From contig JAEUHN010000017.1 of assembly GCA_016795365.1 (NCBI GenBank), positions 1-64,000 of the forward strand: a stretch of 64,000 nucleotides of DNA. The letters run 5' to 3'. Of the stretch, positions 2,261 to 12,771 are shown piece after piece (within the stretch, counting starts at the first letter, position 1; the number at the start of each line of letters is the position of its first letter). The position numbers and the translations under genes were made by a program. Origin of the DNA: Verrucomicrobiaceae bacterium (GTDB taxonomy: Bacteria > Verrucomicrobiota > Verrucomicrobiia > Verrucomicrobiales > Verrucomicrobiaceae). The notes below the pieces were generated by a model. That model saw only the letters and a program-made list of their open reading frames with translations. It was not told where the DNA came from and made no database searches.

Positions 2261-5200
2261 CTACTGTCCACTGGCCACCGCTTTCCCGGCGCTGGGCAGG
2301 GTCTTGATGCGCTGGGTGGCGCTGAGGCCGTTCTTGTCGGGTTCATACATCGCTTCGATGCGCGCGCTGGGGGCGATCACATCGCCCTCGGCTACGACAC
2401 GGGCGAGGTAGGTCAGCTCGAACTTGCCTTTGCCAGGCGCGTAGTCCGTGAAGAACTGGGCGTGGTCGGTGCGGAGTTCGCGATGGTCGCAGAACCAAGC
2501 CTCGGTGCCCTTGTCGGCGGCGTTGTGGCGCACGTTTTCAGCATCGAACTCCGGGTTCACGGCTTCGAAGACCGCGGGCAGCGGATCGTTGATCGCGAGG
2601 TAGCGATCACCGCCAGGAATCTCGACCGTCAGCCTCACAAGCACCATGTCACCGATGCGCAGGTCCTCCAGGTCCTGCGTATTGCCGTCCGGCAGGAGCT
2701 TCTCGTAAACACGGCTGATGCCGTAGCCGTTGTTCGCCCCCGCGAAGTCACGGAGCTTGGACCAGCTGCGGGCTTCTACGCGGGCGAAGGTCTGGCGGTC
2801 TTTGGGGATCTCGATCTTGAGCGGCTGCTTCAGCATCTCGGAGTTCAAGGGCTGGGACCAGCGTGCGTTGGAGGCGGGCGTGGGCAGTTCGAGCGTCGTC
2901 TTTTGTTCGCCCCAGGCGAGGTTCACCGAGAGCGGAGCATCGGAGCGCTTGAGACTGCGTTCGTAGCCAGCGAGCGCGTAGAGCGTCCAGCCATTGGCGA
3001 ACGTGTTACCCCACTCACCGCGGCTGTTGCGAGAGGCGAGCACATTGGTCAGAAGGTCCTTCGCTTCATTGGTCATGCCTACGTGAGCATAGGCGATCAA
3101 ACGGAGGGCGTTGTTGACCTTGGTGCCCGACCAGTGCGACCACTTGCCAGGGTCGCCATCGCCGGTGAGGAGGGTCTTGATTTGGGCCTCCGGGGCATTG
3201 TCGATGCACATTGAGAGGGCGAGGAAGAGCTTCCCAATCGGCGGCAGCTTCGCGCGGCGGAGGTAGAGCTGATTGGCATACGCGGGCTCCGACTTACCGC
3301 CCTTGGCGAGGGTGTAGAGGGCGAAGGCATTGTCCACGAGCGTGGTGGTGTCGCGCTCGTCATCCACGTGGCGGAGTTGCTTGCTGAGGTAGTCGAGCAG
3401 TTCGTCAATGATCTCCTTCGGCACCGAGGCACCGGCTTCACGAGCCTTCAGCAGCACCCAGCCACCGTAGGCGCTGCCGGACAGCTGAGGCTCCTTGCCA
3501 CCGGGCCAATACGAAAGCCCGCCGTGCTCCGTGACCATCGTGAGCAGGCGATTGACGCCCTTCTGGATCGCATCTTTGCGTTCCTTCGGATCGAGCTGGC
3601 CAGGGAACATGGTCTCAAACCCGCCGAGCGCGAGCCATGGCATCATGGAGGAACTCGTCTGCTCCACGCAGCCATACGGATAGTGCAGCACATACTCCAG
3701 AGCGTCCGCGATTTCGGGCAGTCGTGAGTTGCTCACCGTGATATTGAGCGTGCCGTCGCCTTCGAGGACCTCGGGCTTAAGATCCTTGAGGAGCGCCTCG
3801 GGCAGCGCGCCGCCCGACACATTCACGTAGCGCACATCGCGCAGCTCAGTCACGGGATGCTCCACGTTGAACTTCGACTCCATGCGATCGCTCAGGGCAG
3901 TTCCATCGGACCACTGGGTGGTCTTCACCTGCCAGTTCCACTTCGCCTCGCCGACCTTGGCAAACTTCACTGGGAAGGCGACGGACGCGGTTTCCTTGGC
4001 CTTCAACGGCACCACCTTCTTCCACACCTTGCCTTCGGGCTTGCCCGCATCACCGGTGGCATTGGTGACAACGAAGGGCCGGTCCTCGCTGATGAAGTCG
4101 GCGCGATCATCAAGGGTGAACTGCACTTCCACGCTGCCGCTGTGGGCGGTGGTGTTGTGGACCACGGCTTTCACGATCAACTCATCGTCGATGCGAGCGA
4201 AGCGAGGCAGTGCGGGCTCGATCATGAGCGGCTTGTTGATCGTTACCTGGCTCTGGGCGCTGCCGAAGCGTGTGGCTCCCTCGGTGGCGAAGGCCATGAG
4301 GCGATAGCGGGTGAGATTGTCGGGTGCGGTGAAGCTCGTCTTGATCGCGCCCGTGGCGTCCGTCATGGCCGTCGCCGTCCAGAGCGCCGTGGTGAGGAAG
4401 TTTTTGCGAGTGTCGATCTCTGGGTCCTGATCATCTCCGCCGCCGCCCACGACGAAGCCCTTGTTGCCGTGTGCGCGCGCTTTGGCGTCTTCGGTCACCA
4501 CGCTGCCGAAGTTGGTGTGGTTGGTGATCGCCAGCGGCACTTCGGCGTGGAAGTAGCCGAGCGGATCAGGCGTCTCATACTTCATCAGGCTGAGCACGCC
4601 TTCATCCACGGCAGCAAGCGTGACCTCCGCATTGGCCACAGGCTTCGTCGCACCATCGGTGACGATCGCGGTGAAAGCCGCAGACTCGCCGGGCTTCACT
4701 TCGGGCTGGGCGGGATTGATCGCGATGTTCAGCTCGTTCGCGGAGCTTTCCACCGTGAGCTTGCAGTAGCCCACCTTGTATTCCGGCATCTTCACCGCTT
4801 GCGGGCTGTCCTGTGCGCCACGAATCACCACGACGGAGACAAACACATTCGGGGCATCTTCTTCGCCCACCTCCACTTCGATGATCGGCTTGTCGGGCGA
4901 CACGGGAGTCTGGAACAAACGCTGCACCTTGTTGCGCTCGACGGTCACCAGCGCGGTGCCAGCGATGGGGCTCTTGACCACGATGCTCGCTTTTTCGCCG
5001 GGCTTGAGCGTCGTCTTGTCTGGCTGCAAGTCGATCATGGCTCCGTCCTCGACGGCCCAGGGGAACTCGCCTCCGCCAATGACGAACACCGGCATGCGAG
5101 TGAGCACGGCGCGGTTGCCTGGATCAGTGGCTTCGATGGTGAGGAAGTAGCGACCGCCGGCCTTGGGTGTGACCGGAATGGTGAGTGAGGCAGCATGTTC

Positions 5201-8086
5201 GGCCGTGGCCGCGTGCAGGGTGCCGGTGCTGTTGAGTTCCTCTTCGAGCACCACCTGGTTCTTCACCGTTTCGCCGCCGCCTGCGGTCTGGACCTTGATG
5301 GAATGATAGGCCTGGCGCTCGAACTTGTATTTCACCGGCACGTCGGTGGTCCAGGCTTTGCCTTCCGGTGTGACGGCCACGGCTTCGATGCTCGTAGCCT
5401 TGCCTGCGGTAGCAAAGTAGTCTTTCGCGGCGAGGCCGATCACGAACGCGGCACCTGGCAGCGAGAACTCCGTGCTGCCCATGATGGTCTGCTCATTGAT
5501 GTCTGTCACCTCGGCCTCCACGCGGATCTTCTGGGGCAGCACGGTGGTCAAGGCGGGAGGTGTGGGCATCTCGATGCTGAGCGTGCCGTCTTCATTCAGC
5601 GTGTTCTCGCCGTAGGCATTCCATTCTTCCGTGCTCAGCGTGTTGCGATCGCTGCCATCATCTTCATCGCGGCCATACGATGCCCAGCTGGGTGCATCGC
5701 CGAAGTGGTAGGCACTCCATTGCTCGGGCATCTCGGCGACCTCCATACGGAAGGCGTTCCAGGTGATCTTCGATTTGCTCAGGGGCTTGCCCATGTAGTA
5801 GCTCGCGGTGAGCGGCACCTTGATGCGATCGGCACCGATGTTGATCTTCGAGCCATCGAACTTCACCTCGAAGGTGTTCGGCCGGTAGTCGTCCACGCGC
5901 AGCTGGAGATGGCTGTCGTAGTCGTTGTCGCTGTTGCTGTCGGGGAACTTGATCGACACGCCATACCAGCCCGTCGGAGCCGAAGGCAGGAGCACGCTGT
6001 CATTCCATGAACCATTGGCCGAGAAGGTGATGTTCTTCTCGATCACCACCTTGGAGCGTGGATCGCGGACCTGGAGCAAGGCCTTCACCGGAGCGGGATC
6101 GAGCTTCAGTTCGTCACCGACGGAGACGCGGGTGTAAGCCTTGAGAAAAGCGATTTCGCCGGGCTTGAACAGCGGACGATCGGCAAACACAAAGGTCTTC
6201 CGCTGCGGCTGCCAGGGCGAGCGCCAGGCCGTGCTGAGCGAGAAGTGCCACAGCGGAATGGCCGAGTCATAGCCCGTCACTTCGAGGGCTGTGGCGTCGC
6301 TGTCTTTCTCCGCGAGCACATAGGCTGCCTCCGTGGCGGGGATGGTGGCAAGGCCGTTGTTGTCGGTGCTGCCGTGGCCGAGCAGACGATGATCCTTGTC
6401 CACCAGGGCAAGACGAACGCCGGGGATGGGCTTGCCCGTGGCGAGGGAAACGGCGAGCACGGTGGAGTTGCGGTAGTCGTTCTTGTGGAAGAGCCCGATG
6501 TCGGTGAACTCCACCAGGGTCTGAGCGATGCTCGCCTTGCCTTCGAGTCCTGGCAGCGCGGTGCCTTCCAGCTCGATGAAAAGAGGCGCTGCGGTGGTAT
6601 TGCCCAGCACTTCCTTCCAGTTGATGGATTGGAGGGAGCTTTGGTCGATGGGCTTGTTCACCGGGAAGGTGCGGTCGAAGACCACCGTGCCTGGATATTC
6701 ATCAAATGGCTTGGGCGTGAACTTGCGGCGTTCCTCGCGGTCGCGGCTGCCATTGGAGCCCACGTAGGGCTGGTAAGCCTGGATCGTCTGCAGCAGCTCG
6801 GGGCCGGTGAGGCGCTTCGCCCTCATGCGCACCTGCGAGACATTGGCCGCGTGGAATTCAAACTCGCCTTTGCCCGTGGCGAGCTGTGCATGGATGAAGG
6901 ACGAGGCCGAGAGGTAAGGCGGATTCGCCACAAAGACGAGCGTCGCCTCGGCCGGAGCAGCCAGCTTGAGACCATCGCTGGAGGTGATCTCGGTCGCCAC
7001 GCTGGCCTTGTATTCCTTGCCCAGCTCGAAGCTGCCGGACACACGCAGGGTGGACTCGTCGATGATGTCGAACTTCACGTTGCTCACGGCGGGCTCGATC
7101 TTCACTTGTGGTGACGCGGCGGCGAGCTGTTCCTTCTTTTGCTTGGTCCGGTCATCGCCGCGCAGGTCCTCGTCGATCAGCGTGCGGGTGAATTCGATGT
7201 CCACGTAGCGAGCCGTGTCGAAGGGGCTGTGCGCCGTGATCTCGCTCACCTCGAAGGGGCGGATGTCGCCGAGCACGATGAGGTCGCCCGTGTCGAGTTT
7301 GGAGGTGCCCGACTTGTTAACGATGGTGGGCGCAATATCCAGCGACCAGCCCTTGCCTGGGTTCAGCGGCTGCGCAGGCGTCACGATGATGGCGGACTCG
7401 CGCGTGGCGTCGTCGGCCACCTTGGGCTGCACGCCAGCGATCTCCTCCGACCATGTCGGGTGCGGCTCCGCATGGTTGCGACGGAAGTCCTTGCCCGTGG
7501 CGAAGCGGACGCTCGCAGGCACTCGCTCTTTGGTCTCCTCGCACTTGTAGGCGATGCCCGGCGTCACCACCTCCAGGGTGACGGGGTCATTGAACTCGAA
7601 GAGGAACATCTGATTCCGCGACACATTCGTCTCGTCCAGCCAGCGCGGGTATTGTTCCACCACGCGGAACTTCTCCGTCGTCACATCCTTCAGCTTCGAG
7701 GCCGGCACCTCGCGGCCCTCGGTGTCCTTCAATCCCGCACGCAGATCAAAGCGATAGCCCGCGTCGAAGCTCGGTGCCTGCGACAGACGGTAGATGCCTC
7801 CGCGAGTGCTGGTCCATTCAAACTTGCCCTGCAGCGGCGGCACGATCACGATCGGCGACTCAGGCTCCGTGCTGCCCACGCGCTCCTTCGGGATCATCGA
7901 CGTGGCAAAGGTGAGTTCGATCGTGGAGAGCGGGCCGAATTCCTTCGGGTTGATCACCAGCCGCGCCTCCAGATTCGATTTGGGCGCTGCGGGTTCCGCT
8001 TTGGCTTTGGACTTCTTGGAAGCCGGGGCTCCCGAGGCGGAGAGGACTGACAGCAACAGCAACGAGGAGAGGATGAGCTTGTGCAT
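2261..8086 (-). CDS. Secreted alpha-2-macroglobulin-like protein with thioester
   Basis: A giant protein of about 1941 residues. Family members trap proteases in the periplasm through an internal thioester. Features in order: a Sec signal peptide (MHKLILSSLLLLSVLSASGA), many beta-rich macroglobulin domains, the MG motif FVFADRPLFKPGE near residue 630, the thioester motif GCVEQ with Cys at about 1473, an alpha/alpha-toroid thioester domain including GLSYWPGG, and a C-terminal receptor-binding-like beta domain (VRLTVEIPGG then NDPLPAVFE). The frame is open to 8140, but the ATG at 8086 starts the signal peptide. Unlike Escherichia coli YfhM there is no lipobox Cys after the signal, so the protein should be soluble or exported. 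No penicillin-binding protein 1C gene is adjacent. It probably defends the envelope against foreign proteases, by inference from the family. Confidence 0.9.
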   Translation of the reverse strand: MHKLILSSLLLLSVLSASGAPASKKSKAKAEPAAPKSNLEARLVINPKEFGPLSTIELTFATSMIPKERVGSTEPESPIVIVPPLQGKFEWTSTRGGIYRLSQAPSFDAGYRFDLRAGLKDTEGREVPASKLKDVTTEKFRVVEQYPRWLDETNVSRNQMFLFEFNDPVTLEVVTPGIAYKCEETKERVPASVRFATGKDFRRNHAEPHPTWSEEIAGVQPKVADDATRESAIIVTPAQPLNPGKGWSLDIAPTIVNKSGTSKLDTGDLIVLGDIRPFEVSEITAHSPFDTARYVDIEFTRTLIDEDLRGDDRTKQKKEQLAAASPQVKIEPAVSNVKFDIIDESTLRVSGSFELGKEYKASVATEITSSDGLKLAAPAEATLVFVANPPYLSASSFIHAQLATGKGEFEFHAANVSQVRMRAKRLTGPELLQTIQAYQPYVGSNGSRDREERRKFTPKPFDEYPGTVVFDRTFPVNKPIDQSSLQSINWKEVLGNTTAAPLFIELEGTALPGLEGKASIAQTLVEFTDIGLFHKNDYRNSTVLAVSLATGKPIPGVRLALVDKDHRLLGHGSTDNNGLATIPATEAAYVLAEKDSDATALEVTGYDSAIPLWHFSLSTAWRSPWQPQRKTFVFADRPLFKPGEIAFLKAYTRVSVGDELKLDPAPVKALLQVRDPRSKVVIEKNITFSANGSWNDSVLLPSAPTGWYGVSIKFPDSNSDNDYDSHLQLRVDDYRPNTFEVKFDGSKINIGADRIKVPLTASYYMGKPLSKSKITWNAFRMEVAEMPEQWSAYHFGDAPSWASYGRDEDDGSDRNTLSTEEWNAYGENTLNEDGTLSIEMPTPPALTTVLPQKIRVEAEVTDINEQTIMGSTEFSLPGAAFVIGLAAKDYFATAGKATSIEAVAVTPEGKAWTTDVPVKYKFERQAYHSIKVQTAGGGETVKNQVVLEEELNSTGTLHAATAEHAASLTIPVTPKAGGRYFLTIEATDPGNRAVLTRMPVFVIGGGEFPWAVEDGAMIDLQPDKTTLKPGEKASIVVKSPIAGTALVTVERNKVQRLFQTPVSPDKPIIEVEVGEEDAPNVFVSVVVIRGAQDSPQAVKMPEYKVGYCKLTVESSANELNIAINPAQPEVKPGESAAFTAIVTDGATKPVANAEVTLAAVDEGVLSLMKYETPDPLGYFHAEVPLAITNHTNFGSVVTEDAKARAHGNKGFVVGGGGDDQDPEIDTRKNFLTTALWTATAMTDATGAIKTSFTAPDNLTRYRLMAFATEGATRFGSAQSQVTINKPLMIEPALPRFARIDDELIVKAVVHNTTAHSGSVEVQFTLDDRADFISEDRPFVVTNATGDAGKPEGKVWKKVVPLKAKETASVAFPVKFAKVGEAKWNWQVKTTQWSDGTALSDRMESKFNVEHPVTELRDVRYVNVSGGALPEALLKDLKPEVLEGDGTLNITVSNSRLPEIADALEYVLHYPYGCVEQTSSSMMPWLALGGFETMFPGQLDPKERKDAIQKGVNRLLTMVTEHGGLSYWPGGKEPQLSGSAYGGWVLLKAREAGASVPKEIIDELLDYLSKQLRHVDDERDTTTLVDNAFALYTLAKGGKSEPAYANQLYLRRAKLPPIGKLFLALSMCIDNAPEAQIKTLLTGDGDPGKWSHWSGTKVNNALRLIAYAHVGMTNEAKDLLTNVLASRNSRGEWGNTFANGWTLYALAGYERSLKRSDAPLSVNLAWGEQKTTLELPTPASNARWSQPLNSEMLKQPLKIEIPKDRQTFARVEARSWSKLRDFAGANNGYGISRVYEKLLPDGNTQDLEDLRIGDMVLVRLTVEIPGGDRYLAINDPLPAVFEAVNPEFDAENVRHNAADKGTEAWFCDHRELRTDHAQFFTDYAPGKGKFELTYLARVVAEGDVIAPSARIEAMYEPDKNGLSATQRIKTLPSAGKAVASGQ

Positions 8087-8258
8087 GGCGGAGTGTGGTG
8101 ACTCGACGGCGAGATAACGGCATTCGGACGCGAGACGCAATGGTTCTATTGAAGCAATTCAGGGAGAGCGGAAGAAAGTCGCAGCGCTGCCAAAGGCGAG
8201 CCCTCGGCCTCGAGATCTACGAGCGTGCCATCGCCATCGTCGGCGGCTTCATCGAGAA

Positions 8259-9515
8259 TCAATCCTCGGCTCCCTGGGGCGATTGAATCACCCGTGCTCC
8301 GCGCTGCCAGGTGAAGTAGGACCACACCCAGTGCAGGAAGACCGATGCGCGATTGCGCATGCCCATGAGGAAGAGCAGATGCACAAACAGCCACATCAGC
8401 CAGGCCAGCAGCCCGCGCACCTGCATGCCCGCGAAACTCACCACCGCCGCGCTTCGGCCAATCGTGGCCATGCTGCCCTTGTCCCAGTAGCCAAAGGCGG
8501 GCCGCGAATCTCCTAGCGGCTCGTTCTGAATCGTCTGGGCGATGAACTGGCCCATCTGAATCGCCGCCGGACACACACCGGGCACACGCACGCCATTCTT
8601 GTCCGTCAGGCTCGCGATGTCGCCCGCCGCGAAGACCTCGGGATGCCCTGGCAGGCTCAGATCAGGTCGCACCTCGATGCGTCCGCCACGGTCCAGCGCA
8701 ATGCCCGCCAGCGTGCGCGTGACCTCGCTCGCCTCCACGCCTGCACCCCACACCACGAGGTCGGTTTCGATCCGCTGATCACCGGCCAGCACATAGCCTG
8801 CGCCCACGTCTTTGACCGGGCAGTTGAGGTGAACCTGGACCCCCATGCGCTCGAGTCGCTGGCGAGTGTAGTCCGGCAGATCACCGGGGAACATCGGCAG
8901 CAGTTTCGGCCCCGCTTCAATCAGATGCACCCGCGCCTTTGCCGGATCAATGCGGCGGAAGTCCTCCTTGAGCACCACGTTCGCCAGCTCCGCCAGCGAC
9001 CCCGCCATCTCCACGCCCGTCGGTCCACCGCCGACGACGACCATGGTGAGCAGGCGCTCGATCTCCGCTGGATCAGTCGATGACTCCGCCTTCTCAAAGG
9101 CCAGCAACACCTTCCTGCGGATCGCCATCGCATCATCCAGGCTCTTCAGCCCCAGCGTGTGCGGAGCCCATTCCGCATGACCGAAGTAGCTCGTCTTCGC
9201 CCCCAGCGCGATCACGAGGAAGTCATAGTCCAGCACGCGATCCTTCAACTGCACCTGACGTTTCTCCACGTCGATGCGCGTCACCTCATTCATGATCGTC
9301 GTCACATTCTTATGCTCCGAAAGGATCGAGCGCAGCGGCTGCGCAATCTCCGTCATCGCCAGCCCGCCTGTGGCCACCTGATAGAGCAAGGGCTGGAACA
9401 GATGATGATTCCAGCGATCCACCAGTGTCACCCGGAAGCGCTCCTCATTCAGACCTTTGGCACAGGCCAGCCCCGCAAAGCCGCCTCCGAGAATGATGAC
9501 GTGTGGTTCGCTCAT
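8259..9515 (-). CDS. ndh: Type II NADH dehydrogenase (NDH-2)
   Basis: A single-subunit, non-proton-pumping NADH:quinone oxidoreductase of the inner membrane. The FAD-binding motif LGGGFAG sits at residues 9-15, and a second dinucleotide motif (VVVGGGPTGVE) binds NADH. The FAD-contact motif VFAAGDIA and the CPAAIQMGQ segment are present. The C-terminus holds a hydrophobic amphipathic stretch (LLAWLMWLFVHLLFLMGM) followed by WVWSYFTWQRG, typical of membrane-bound NDH-2. The length of 418 residues is normal. The frame runs open to 9599, but the ATG at 9515 places the FAD motif correctly near the N-terminus. It lies 172 bases upstream of the macroglobulin gene on the same strand, with no obvious functional link. 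Confidence 0.92.
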   Translation of the reverse strand: MSEPHVIILGGGFAGLACAKGLNEERFRVTLVDRWNHHLFQPLLYQVATGGLAMTEIAQPLRSILSEHKNVTTIMNEVTRIDVEKRQVQLKDRVLDYDFLVIALGAKTSYFGHAEWAPHTLGLKSLDDAMAIRRKVLLAFEKAESSTDPAEIERLLTMVVVGGGPTGVEMAGSLAELANVVLKEDFRRIDPAKARVHLIEAGPKLLPMFPGDLPDYTRQRLERMGVQVHLNCPVKDVGAGYVLAGDQRIETDLVVWGAGVEASEVTRTLAGIALDRGGRIEVRPDLSLPGHPEVFAAGDIASLTDKNGVRVPGVCPAAIQMGQFIAQTIQNEPLGDSRPAFGYWDKGSMATIGRSAAVVSFAGMQVRGLLAWLMWLFVHLLFLMGMRNRASVFLHWVWSYFTWQRGARVIQSPQGAED

Positions 9516-9687
9516 GCCGCGCAGAGTGCGGAGAAACCCACCGGGATCAACTGGCAGCCTTGCTGAGGTCGTGGGCGTTGAGGGTGATCGACGGCTCAAG
9601 GCGGGAGCGCGTCAGGGGCTTGGACGGCTGGCGCGGTGATCGTTTGCACCTTACCTCTGTCTGATCACGGGGGGTGCTTGTGCGTTG

Positions 9688-9773
9688 AGGGAACGTCAAG
9701 GATCAGGCGACGGGGAGACTTTGAATACACGTCAGCGACCTTCGAGCCATTGCCTGCATCCGTTTTGTTCGCC
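9688..9773. repeat. attC-like dyad element, copy A
   Basis: Third copy along the minus strand, just 3' of the gene at 9793-10323. Plus-strand outer arms are AGGGAAC (9688-9694) and GTTCGCC (9767-9773), each followed or preceded by an unpaired spacer. Inner arms are GGATCAGGCGACGG (9700-9713) and GCCATTGCCTGCATCCG (9746-9762), which pair with one extra unpaired base. The 37 bases at 9739-9775 match copy C (11096-11132) with a single difference. Confidence 0.6.
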
Positions 9774-9792
9774 TTCGTTTTTGGGTGTGCCT

Positions 9793-10323
9793 TCATTTCG
9801 GGCTTACACGTTCAAAACTCGACTTCGGAGCCGAAAGCTCGAAGGTCTTAAGCTGGCGATCAAAAGTAATTAATACCTTCTGACCACTGCCATAATTAAA
9901 ACCAAGGGTCCGTTGACCCTCGTTAGTGAAAACATAACCTCTTCGACCTCCAGACTGATCAACAAAGAATACCTTTCCACCTTCAAAACGAATGCCGTCC
10001 TTAGCTGCCTTGTTCTTGTTCCTCCAGTCGGTTCCCTCAATGGACTTGGCAATGTCGTCATCGTTTGGAGCGGGAGCCTGAGCGGTTGGGGAAATGACTT
10101 TGATCTCGGACTCAACAGCCAAGGCACCTTGAAGGTCTCCCTTCTTGGTGAGTTCTGTTTTGAGCTTCTCAAGCTCGGTCAAATATGTCTTGGTTAGCGG
10201 GGCTGTGCTGCGCTCGACGGCGGAACGATATGAATCTCGCAACGAACGAAGTCGATCAGGTTCCTGCGACCATGCTGAGGAAATCGTCAATGCTAGGAGT
10301 GTGATGAGCTTCGTGTGTTTCAT
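9793..10323 (-). CDS. Small secreted protein, tandem paralogue 1
   Basis: A 176-residue exported protein of unknown function. The signal peptide (MKHTKLITLLALTISSAWS) is followed by a helical module (SYRSAVERSTAPLTKTYLTE then KGDLQGALAVESEI) shared with the two genes beside it. The C-terminal domain is beta-rich (EGTDWRN, FEGGKVFFVD, GYVFTNEGQ) and more like paralogue 3 than paralogue 2. The frame is open to 10458, but the ATG at 10323 starts the signal peptide. GC is visibly low: I count 22 of 60 bases at 9841-9900, against clearly GC-rich flanks. It lies between attC-like elements A and B and could be a gene cassette or a tandem duplicate. No function is assigned. Confidence 0.75.
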   Translation of the reverse strand: MKHTKLITLLALTISSAWSQEPDRLRSLRDSYRSAVERSTAPLTKTYLTELEKLKTELTKKGDLQGALAVESEIKVISPTAQAPAPNDDDIAKSIEGTDWRNKNKAAKDGIRFEGGKVFFVDQSGGRRGYVFTNEGQRTLGFNYGSGQKVLITFDRQLKTFELSAPKSSFERVSPK

Positions 10324-10342
10324 GCGATGGACTCTAGAGTTG

Positions 10343-10433
10343 GGCGAAGGACTCGGATCAGGCGACGGCGAGCGCAAGACTCCGCTAATACGACAGACGA
10401 CTCCGAGCCGTTGCCACCAGCGCCTTGTTTGCC
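10343..10433. repeat. attC-like dyad element, copy B
   Basis: Second copy, between paralogue 2 and paralogue 1. The left inner arm CGGATCAGGCGACGGC (10354-10369) is identical to copy C. The right arm keeps only GCCGTTGCC (10407-10415), and the outer boxes (GGCGAAG at 10343, GTTTGCC at 10427) are degenerate. The 26 bases GGATCAGGCG... to ...GCAAGAC at about 10355-10380 match copy C almost exactly. This is the most decayed copy. Confidence 0.5.
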
Positions 10434-10459
10434 CCTTTTTGTTGCCACAGGTCGCCATC

Positions 10460-11017
10460 TCATGATTTCTTCATCAAGATAGGCGTTCTGCTGAAATCTC
10501 CGTCATCAAACCAATGAAACGTCTCACCTTCAACATGGATGATCGTTCCTACTTTTGATGCCTCTTCAACTTCAATACTCAATTCTTTTCCTCCTTTTCT
10601 AAGGGTTGCGTGTCCCTTGGTGATTTTGCCTGATCCGTCTCTTCGCTCGACGGTTCCTTTGGTCGCATTTGGCGGTATCACGACCACATAAGCTGCCCCC
10701 TTGATGGAGGTAAATGTTCCATTAAAGTCGGGAAGTTTTGGGGCTGTTGCTTTTGTCAAATCAACGTCCGAAGACCCGAGGAGCTTAAGCTCGCTGTCTA
10801 TTGCGAGAGCGCCCTGCAAATCCCCTTTCTTCATGTAGTCCGTTTTCAGTCGTTGGAGCTCGGAGGTGTAAGTCTTAGTTAGTGGAACTGTTACTTTATG
10901 GACTGCGGCCTGATATGATGCCTTCAGTTTGACGACATCGGGAGGAAGTTGGGGAGCCTGCCCAAAACCCGGGTATGCGATTAGGAGTCCAACAAGAGTG
11001 AGTCGAGTTTTGTTCAT
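10460..11017 (-). CDS. Small secreted protein, tandem paralogue 2
   Basis: A 185-residue exported protein of unknown function. The signal peptide is MNKTRLTLVGLLIAYPGFG. The same helical module follows (LKASYQAAVHKVTVPLTKTY, then KKGDLQGALAIDSELKLLG). The C-terminal part differs from its neighbours: a beta-rich domain with GTFTSIKGAAYVVVIPP, RDGSGKITKGHATLRKG and GETFHWFDDGDF. A conserved N-terminal module with exchanged C-terminal domains suggests modular divergence. The ATG at 11017 is chosen over the longer open frame because it begins the signal peptide. Base composition is low in GC (24 of 60 by my count at 10501-10560). It is flanked by attC-like elements B and C. Confidence 0.75.
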   Translation of the reverse strand: MNKTRLTLVGLLIAYPGFGQAPQLPPDVVKLKASYQAAVHKVTVPLTKTYTSELQRLKTDYMKKGDLQGALAIDSELKLLGSSDVDLTKATAPKLPDFNGTFTSIKGAAYVVVIPPNATKGTVERRDGSGKITKGHATLRKGGKELSIEVEEASKVGTIIHVEGETFHWFDDGDFSRTPILMKKS

Positions 11018-11037
11018 GGCGAGTGGCTTGATTTTTG

Positions 11038-11130
11038 GGTGAACGCTTCGGATCAGGCGACGGCGAGCGCAAGACGTTGCTGACACGACAGATAGCCTTC
11101 GAGCCGTTGCCTGCATCCGTTTTGTTCGCC
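11038..11130. repeat. attC-like dyad element, copy C (best preserved)
   Basis: It lies between paralogue 3 and paralogue 2. Outer boxes are GGTGAAC (11038-11044) and GTTCGCC (11124-11130). These are separated by 4-base unpaired spacers (GCTT and TTTT) from inner arms CGGATCAGGCGACGGC (11049-11064) and GCCGTTGCCTGCATCCG (11103-11119). The inner arms pair with one extrahelical base, leaving a 38-base variable middle. Outer box, unpaired spacer, inner box with an extrahelical base and variable terminal loop is the architecture of integron attC sites. The outer boxes keep AAC/GTT but otherwise depart from the RYYYAAC/GTTRRRY consensus. Confidence 0.62.
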
Positions 11131-11144
11131 TTGGTGCTGCGGTT

Positions 11145-11723
11145 TTACTTCTTGGCGGTGTCGAGCTTGAAGGTTTTCTTCTCGAAGAGTCCTTCCAAAA
11201 CGGCACCCTGATTGGTAAAGCGGAATGTGCCGGGTTTAGGCTCCGCTGGTGAGGTGATCACGAATGAACCATCCTGTGCCTGCTTGTATGTAAATGCGCT
11301 ATAGACTTTGTCGTTTTCGTTTGTGACGGTCATTGCGCCTTTTGCGCGAAACTCCAAGCGCCTCAGAAAGCCAGTCTTCGCAACCCAAACAGTCCCCACA
11401 ATATCGGTGACCGGTGCGGCGGCTGGAACGGTCTCGTTCGGCGGCGCTTGCTGCTCGGTCCTCGCCAACGAAGCACCATCAAGAGTTGCAAGCTCCTTCT
11501 TCACTTGCAAAGCCTGATCCAACTTCCCGGCACGAGTGAAACCATCCATCAAACGCTCGAGTTCTTTACGGTAAGTCGATGTGAGCGGTGTGACGGCCTT
11601 GGTCACGGCTGCCTGATAGGAGGTCTTCAATCGAGCAAGTTCTGGACTCAGAGCATCTTGTGACCAGAGCTGAATCGTAAACGACGCTGAAATCAAGGCT
11701 GCGATGGTTGCTGGCTTTCTCAT
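11145..11723 (-). CDS. Small secreted protein, tandem paralogue 3
   Basis: A 192-residue exported protein of unknown function. The signal peptide (MRKPATIAALISASFTIQLW) leads into the shared module (LKTSYQAAVTKAVTPLTSTY, then RAGKLDQALQVKKELATL). A Pro/Ala linker follows, then a beta-rich C-terminal domain (GTVWVAKTGFLRRLEFRAKG, FRFTNQGAVLEG) resembling that of paralogue 1. The start ATG at 11723 begins the signal peptide directly. It is the first gene of the co-oriented trio. In the upstream region a GTTCGCC box (minus strand, about 11762-11768) remains, but the conserved inner arms do not. The KxGDLxGAL-type motif is one I associate with PVC-group secreted proteins; that is a recollection, not a search result. 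Confidence 0.78.
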   Translation of the reverse strand: MRKPATIAALISASFTIQLWSQDALSPELARLKTSYQAAVTKAVTPLTSTYRKELERLMDGFTRAGKLDQALQVKKELATLDGASLARTEQQAPPNETVPAAAPVTDIVGTVWVAKTGFLRRLEFRAKGAMTVTNENDKVYSAFTYKQAQDGSFVITSPAEPKPGTFRFTNQGAVLEGLFEKKTFKLDTAKK

Positions 11724-11790
11724 GGTAAACTGTAGTCGTTACAAGTGTCGCTGTTGAGGTTAGGCGAACGTTGTTTAGCCACACTTAATT

Positions 11791-11813
11791 GTGGGCGAAT
11801 CGGATTCGTCCAC
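11791..11813. other. Inverted repeat with 10-bp stem
   Basis: GTGGGCGAAT, loop CGG, ATTCGTCCAC: ten pairs including one G-T wobble. It lies between the gene at 11920-12771 and paralogue 3 and could end minus-strand transcription, but no T-run follows, so a terminator role is uncertain. Confidence 0.35.
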
Positions 11814-11919
11814 AGTGAAGTGGGGAATAACAGGGGAACTGGCGAGTCTGGGCTCACCGCTGCCCGAAGAGCCGCGCGCGGGGCGGGGCTCCTCGGGGTG
11901 GCGGTTGATGAGGGGGGGA

Positions 11920-12771
11920 TCAGCCGCCGATGGTGATGCTCACTTCGTCGCTCCACTGGCCGACGCGTTGGTCGCCGACGCGGAAGATGGCTTTGTAGGT
12001 CCACTTCTGCGGGGTGGCGGGGGCGGGGGTGGTGTCCAGGTAGTTGGGCGTGGTGTCCATGGCGAGGAGGGCGAAGCCACTGCCGCGGTCCACGTGCAGT
12101 TCCAGGAGGTCGAGGAAGGCGCTTTTGCCCTGCCAGCTCCAGCGGATGAAGGACTGGCCGCCGCTGAGTTCGAGTTTCAGCTCGGGCTTGAGGCTGGTGT
12201 AGTCCGGGGCGCTGACGTGGTCGCCCTCGATGCCGAGGGCTTCGCCGATGGCGGTGTTGTAGTTGGGGTGGGCTTTGATGAGGTTGGCGAGGTCGCGGAA
12301 GCGCCGCTCGATGCCGGGGGCCACGGGGGTGGCGGCGGAGGGATAGGTGGGCGGCACGGGGGCGCCGCTGATGGGGCCGGTGCCGCCGTGGCGGATGATG
12401 TTTTTCCAGCCGGTCTGCTGCTGGGTGTGGTTGCTGGAGATGTCGGCGCAGCAGAGCAACTGGTTGAAGTAATCGGCATCGGCGGCCTGGGAGGCGATCT
12501 GGGCGTCGGTGAGGCCGAGGAGCACCTTGTAGGCGCCGATGTTGTTTTTGAAGGTCTGGAGCTGGGCGTTGAACTCAGCGTCCCGTGACTTGATTGGGTC
12601 GTGTTTAGGCATGGCTTTGCGTTTGGTTTGAGGTTGGCTTGGGGGAAAGCTGGCAGAGGTGGGGTCGGGCACGTAGCCGGGGTCGCCGGGTTCGAGGAGG
12701 TAAGACGGGTCGCCCCAACGGAGGTTGGGGTCGTCCCAGCGGACGCCGGAGTCCCAGGTGACGGGTTTCAT
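11920..12771 (-). CDS. Hypothetical protein with Trp/Asp-rich leader and fibronectin-like end
   Basis: Up to 283 residues, function unknown. The first 53 residues are Trp/Asp/Pro-rich (repeats such as RWDDP and RWGDP) and lack a signal peptide. An internal ATG at 12612 begins a more ordinary protein (MPKHDPIKSRDAEFNAQLQ) and may be the real start, giving about 230 residues. The middle is helical, with paired Cys (LLCCADIS) and a Gly/Pro linker. The end (SGGQSFIRWSW, LELHVDRGSGF, WTYKAIFRVGD, GQWSDEVSITI) looks like a fibronectin type III-like beta sandwich. The gene begins 29 bases from the 21-bp tandem repeats, which lie in its upstream region and could carry or disturb its promoter. Confidence 0.6.
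   Translation of the reverse strand: MKPVTWDSGVRWDDPNLRWGDPSYLLEPGDPGYVPDPTSASFPPSQPQTKRKAMPKHDPIKSRDAEFNAQLQTFKNNIGAYKVLLGLTDAQIASQAADADYFNQLLCCADISSNHTQQQTGWKNIIRHGGTGPISGAPVPPTYPSAATPVAPGIERRFRDLANLIKAHPNYNTAIGEALGIEGDHVSAPDYTSLKPELKLELSGGQSFIRWSWQGKSAFLDLLELHVDRGSGFALLAMDTTPNYLDTTPAPATPQKWTYKAIFRVGDQRVGQWSDEVSITIGG

Follow-up and report, generated by a model that had tools for sequence, protein, structure and literature searches.

Three adjacent short genes on the minus strand of a Verrucomicrobiaceae contig are each followed on their 3' side by an attC-like element. A preliminary description of this DNA favored an integron-type cassette array, with plain tandem duplication of a gene and its terminator as the main alternative. 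The locus lies in a 64-kb stretch (the window, analyzed over its whole length), in which tblastn finds no integron integrase, as the description had stated. The question is whether these genes are integron cassettes and, if so, at which site and by which enzyme they could have been inserted.

attC sites in the window

The window was searched with a covariance model (R2), a check that had been proposed from the sequence; the model was built from 30 attC sites, all from other genomes, with the window genome left out. Over the 64 kb it returned exactly three minus-strand matches, the sole extra one being the mirror image of the best, and the scores were far above chance:

11038..11132 (-): attC C, intact; 116.8 bits, E 2.7e-29 with the model lacking the window genome
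10343..10435 (-): attC B, degraded, with R'' box GGCAAAC, R' box CTTCGCC and a changed outer arm; 55.4 bits, E 1.5e-12
9688..9775 (-): attC A, with a shortened middle and R' box GTTCCCT; 64.2 bits, E 5.7e-15

The elements are 88–95 bp long (n = 3, extents set by the covariance model), and each lies 3' of a short minus-strand gene. An Rfam search of the window gave no match. The architecture reported earlier is present in the intact copy: attC C carries the outer 7-bp box GGCGAAC, spacers of 4 nt, inner arms CGGATgCAGGCaACGGC with GCCGTcGCCTGATCCG, and one extrahelical base. It is predicted to form a long imperfect hairpin that is more stable on the strand opposite the genes (-23.4 vs -18.2 kcal/mol; z -3.3 vs -1.3). 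The proposed fold test was thus passed by attC C, whereas attC A and B fold no more stably than shuffled sequences; the boxes of copy B bear out its earlier classification as degraded.

The consensus attC reads GGCGAAC-AAAA-CGGATgCAGGCaACGGC ... GCCGTcGCCTGATCCG-AGnC-GTTCGCC, and in the consensus of the 30 sites 94% of cells are paired; because the arms hardly vary across this alignment, base-pair covariation is uninformative. Nested inverted repeats (R''/R' and L''/L'), spacers, an extrahelical base and a more stable bottom strand are found in attC C and in the 30-site consensus and are weak in A and B, while all three elements match the covariance model. Judged by these features, the three window elements are integron attC sites. 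As the preliminary description had pointed out, copies A (9739) and C (11096) show a single mismatch across a 37-base stretch although the genes have diverged; the proteins are 27–31% identical to the first. Identity thus does not fall in step between genes and elements, the pattern expected in that description for simple duplication.

Cassettes and their boundaries

Between successive crossover points, the window array divides into three units:

11044..11768 (-): cassette 1, gene 11145-11723 (192 aa, function not assigned by profile search) with attC C; delimited by crossover-to-crossover homology with G010:C27
10349..11043 (-): cassette 2, gene at about 10460-11017 (185 aa) with degraded attC B; between successive crossover points
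9694..10348 (-): cassette 3, gene 9793-10323 (176 aa) with attC A; between successive crossover points

Pfam and NCBIfam searches of the three cassette genes gave no matches; the encoded proteins are mutually related and represent distant paralogs. Relatives of these genes adjoin attC as single cassettes in genomes G010 and G011. Cassette 1 aligns over 739 bp at 84.7% identity with a cassette on G010:C27, from a different genus: the homology runs from the upstream crossover GTT to the attC GTT, and the neighbors differ on both sides. Cassette-sized units have a median length of about 640 bp.

Movement of a segment as a circle predicts that its own start supplies the 3' half-site with which the R'' box of its attC pairs. 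Pairing was therefore scored at 4 variable positions in 63 units from the arrays studied, against the start of the same segment and against that of the next. Mean pairing was 3.83/4 with the own start and 3.05/4 with the next unit (permutation mean 3.22, sd 0.05). The own start was better in 36 units, worse in 3 and tied in 24, with a binomial p of 4e-8 that is indicative, as the units are not fully independent. The own start was also better for 11 first cassettes at the attI-like ports described below and worse for none; in the window genome alone the counts were 8 and 1. Sequence comparison thus recovers a gene with its attC between G|TT crossovers, half-sites that match on circularization, and the recurrence of one exact cassette in another genus, and by this comparison the stretches from one GTT crossover point to the next act as cassettes. 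The attC model, the further copies in the genome and the within-unit half-sites together support the cassette array favored in the preliminary description. With attC B degraded, the middle of the window array may no longer be easily excised.

An attI-like site at the head of the array

The 5' boundary of the array, at about 11767-11816, had gone unnoticed in the preliminary description. Two features are located here:

11767..11816 (-): attI-like site ('type B', attI-B), a hairpin and simple-site core GGCTAAACAAC|GTT at the array 5' end; conservation ends at AAC|GTT
11920..12771 (-): gene 5' of the port, with no family match in Pfam/NCBIfam

The attI-B element of about 50 bp is conserved up to the crossover, which in the window falls between G 11769 and T 11768, and is followed by a different cassette at each locus. 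The window genome has five copies, on contigs C32 (the window contig), C4, C36, C23 and C13, and the element is present in 28 of 68 family genomes; the highest number of matches in one genome is about 8, a count in which a palindromic copy may appear on both strands. In three relatives (G011:C38, G006:C51 and G064:C1) it lies about 500 bp from an integron integrase and is divergent to it, a position that marks it as an attI, and its core is similar to the published consensus of delta-attI1, AAACAAAGTTRRRY (PMC12901181). Both hallmarks of an attI, a divergent neighboring intI and cassettes that begin at G|TT, are seen in G011, G006 and G064, and the second alone is seen at the window port. From this comparison, the 5' boundary of the array is identified as an attI site, a putative recombination target.

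DNA related to the gene at 11920..12771 is also found upstream of the ports on C4, C36 and C23. Between 12768 and 13133, likewise 5' of the window port, lie open frames of a short tandem repeat (such as KSFGVRA); the C36 and C23 ports have different short tandem repeats on their 5' side.

Integron integrases of clades A and B

The search for an integrase elsewhere in the genome, suggested in the preliminary description, was successful: one intact integron integrase (IntI-A) was found in the window genome, on contig C26. This protein scores 378 bits against TIGR02249 (cut-off 265); its match to 2a3v, an integron integrase of solved structure, reaches 258 bits over 307 residues and includes the integron-specific region. 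The region around residues 230–260 is aligned to 2a3v, and the R, HxxR, H and Y motifs are present. It thus qualifies as a tyrosine recombinase in which the integron-specific region is present and the catalytic residues are intact. The profile match ends 170 bp from the end of C26, and a contig break lies inside the attI region of this platform. Two further integrases, on C36 and C27, were rejected as integron integrases, being Xer-like and scoring 77–79 bits against TIGR02249, below its cut-off.

The integrase tree resolves into two clades. Clade A comprises the C26 integrase and most of its relatives, which are 54–68% identical to it, and its platforms carry a different attI (type A). Clade B comprises the integrases of G011, G006 and G017 and a fragment in the sister species G001; its members are 80–87% identical to that of G011 and 46–52% identical to the C26 integrase. 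The dispersed attI-B element goes with clade B. No clade B integrase (IntI-B) was found in the window-genome assembly, which is 97% complete in 55 contigs.

Clade B integrases have open frames of 464–481 codons, in which a conserved N-terminal stretch of about 150 aa precedes the usual start (G011:C38, G006:C51, G064:C1); this extension gave no match in Pfam. Several further integrases of the order also have long open frames, of 440–540 codons. Just past the clade B integrase of G011:C38, at 2429-2698, lies a fragment 51% identical to the clade A integrase.

Dispersal of attC and attI-B in the genome and family

The preliminary description had called for a search for more copies of the attC element, and over 20 were found beyond the window. 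In total, the window genome contains about 26 attC sites in 7–8 clusters beside unrelated genes, on C32 (window), C36, C4, C23, C43, C44 and C24, with a degenerate copy on C13. Across the genomes searched, attC sites were detected in 37 of 57.

For the dispersed attI-B copies, or ports, 39 were read in 11 genomes. Downstream attC sites on the same strand were found at 29 of them (two being weak matches, C13 and G006:C51); another 4 reach the end of their contig within 0.7 kb, and 6 have no detectable attC despite enough downstream sequence. Only 3 of the 39 have an adjacent IntI. Most assemblies are draft metagenome bins, with contigs ending in arrays; the port copies of G062 and G078 lie deep inside contigs of 0.2–2.7 Mb and are therefore no assembly artefact.

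The ports also retain traces of an integrase gene. At 13 integrase-less ports the first 17–95 codons of intI-B are kept, with varying cut points (G085:C1 is a weak match); the window port consists of attI alone, with no intI-B codons. In G011, four ports are 98–100% identical and have nested left ends, yet lead into different arrays. The retained codons and the nested left ends argue that the ports derive from the IntI-B platform. Spread of the ports by attG x attC excision was considered and is not supported, as the G011 left ends (-119, -243 and -396 from the crossover) lack G|TT in the source copy. A TTGACT stretch 5' of some ports was likewise discarded as a promoter, since it corresponds to the reversed coding start of intI-B.

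The intI-B relics often end near codon 17–18 or 32–37 (L077, L078, L079, L080, L090, L182-L184), and these end points perhaps reflect a functional stretch such as a cassette promoter. In G001:C122 (L084), an attI port is preceded, on its own strand, by an attC at 7519-7613, an order that perhaps represents two joined arrays.

Turnover at orthologous loci of a sister species

A comparison of strains for cassette gain or loss had also been recommended, and a difference in cassettes was found in the sister species G001, which shares the region beyond the 3' end of the array:

2261..9640 (-): conserved 3' flank outside the array, with the gene of a 1959-aa protein and a pyridine-nucleotide oxidoreductase-like gene; 93% identity to G001:C306:44-7423

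Identity ends at 9640, beyond which the sister species has other cassettes with the same kind of attC. The comparison at this orthologous locus is one-sided: in G001, no array adjoins the counterpart of the window's right flank (contig C238), and the contigs do not join. A second comparison is provided by the port on C13 and its ortholog on C252 of the sister species, where the flanks are kept (94% and 86%) and the content from the attI crossover to the right flank is replaced. The different cassettes at C13/C252 and at the window locus argue for a turnover of port contents over periods comparable to species divergence.

Proposed movement in trans and competing explanations

The window locus is probably a small, genuine array of three cassettes at an integrase-less attI. 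An integron integrase acting in trans would cut cassettes out as circles, through attC x attC recombination of the folded bottom strand, and insert them again at ports. The enzyme could be IntI-A, or an IntI-B since lost or missing from the assembly, and the ports may have arisen by copying of the IntI-B platform, with simultaneous or later loss of most of intI. That the window port is served in this way is suggested by genome comparison. Points against it are the 6 of 39 ports that have no detectable attC, the window attC A and B, which are no more stable than shuffles, and the sole integrase found in the genome, which belongs to clade A, whose members in relatives carry type-A attI. Given this integrase, the main doubt concerns which enzyme would serve attI-B in the window genome. 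A broader model is about as likely as not: in a 'multi-port' integron, a single integrase would serve dispersed attI copies in trans, giving many short, independently refilled arrays, and the ports would be shortened fragments of the IntI-B platform that have dispersed.

The strongest competitor, which we consider possible though rather unlikely, is a dead remnant: a complete IntI-B integron would have been duplicated or rearranged and lost intI, leaving decaying cassettes at a site that no integrase serves. The degraded attC B and the lack of IntI-B in the window-genome assembly would fit such a history, as would the many ports with nothing of intI-B but its 5' end, the expected product of a deletion; intI loss is, moreover, one published origin of CALINs (PMC8618304, PMC9024848). 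However, cassettes are wholly different at orthologous ports and flanks of a sister species about 93–94% identical, which implies turnover close to the split or since. The intact state of cassette 1, its presence in another genus and the nearly identical G011 ports that lead into different arrays also count against a remnant.

Insertion of cassettes at ordinary secondary (attG) sites by an integrase, with no attI involved, is improbable here. Such insertions are known to yield integrase-less arrays at several loci (PMC12444791, PMC12901181), but different attG targets would not have a common element, and the array 5' ends share the element of about 50 bp ending in AAC|GTT that recurs across the family and stands beside integrases in relatives, which refutes this explanation for the window array. 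Simple tandem duplication of a gene with its 3' terminator-like hairpin, with no recombination system, would agree with the distant paralogy of the window proteins but can practically be dismissed, given the same element 3' of unrelated genes at other loci, half-site pairing within units, cross-genus homology that stops at the crossovers of an exact cassette, and related genes present as single cassettes in G010 and G011.

Relation to known integron types

A cluster of attC sites lacking an integron-integrase (CALIN) is a category defined by IntegronFinder (PMC9024848), and the window array, with three attC (two or more being required), cassette genes and no IntI in 64 kb, falls within it; a complete integron would have intI beside attI and the array, and the window contains no IntI. 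The window array is thus a CALIN headed by attI, and as a CALIN it is of a known kind. It differs in that this array and most relatives examined begin at a recognizable attI, whereas the CALIN definition requires none. What is unusual is that attI 'ports' without an integrase occur in several copies. IntegronFinder looks for attI of class 1 only (PMC9024848), so port-type attI go unreported by it. Integrons are known in Verrucomicrobiota, and off-target insertion, intI loss and rearrangement have been proposed as origins of CALINs (PMC8618304).

Sedentary chromosomal integrons of Vibrio and Xanthomonas likewise combine near-identical attC within a genome, short cassettes of unknown function and an integrase in the genome; they have one integrase-linked array, in contrast to the several short arrays at separate attI copies described here. 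The CALINs of Xanthomonas occupy few conserved loci, with no common attI described (PMC12444791). In the delta-attI cassettes of class 1/2 integrons, attI cores with the sequence AAACAA[A/C]GTT also occur away from the integrase (PMC12901181); there, an attI fragment replaces attC within a mobile-integron array, whereas here the full site heads chromosomal arrays. Insertions at attG secondary sites share the integrase-less arrays at G|TT junctions, but have diverse genomic targets instead of a conserved attI-like element. No account of several integrase-less attI copies that each head an array of their own within a single genome turned up in the open-access literature searched, and novelty is provisional.

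CALINs are usually read as degraded integrons or off-target insertions. Across this family, most conserved attI copies lack an adjacent integrase yet head arrays, and the cassettes differ at orthologous places. If the ports were served in trans, an integron would be a network of loading sites in separate genomic contexts and not one array, and current software would miss this network, as these attI are not sought.

In G028, in which no integron integrase was found, type-A attI occurs in several copies (C94, C63, C101 and C133), and attI dispersal may thus extend beyond type B.
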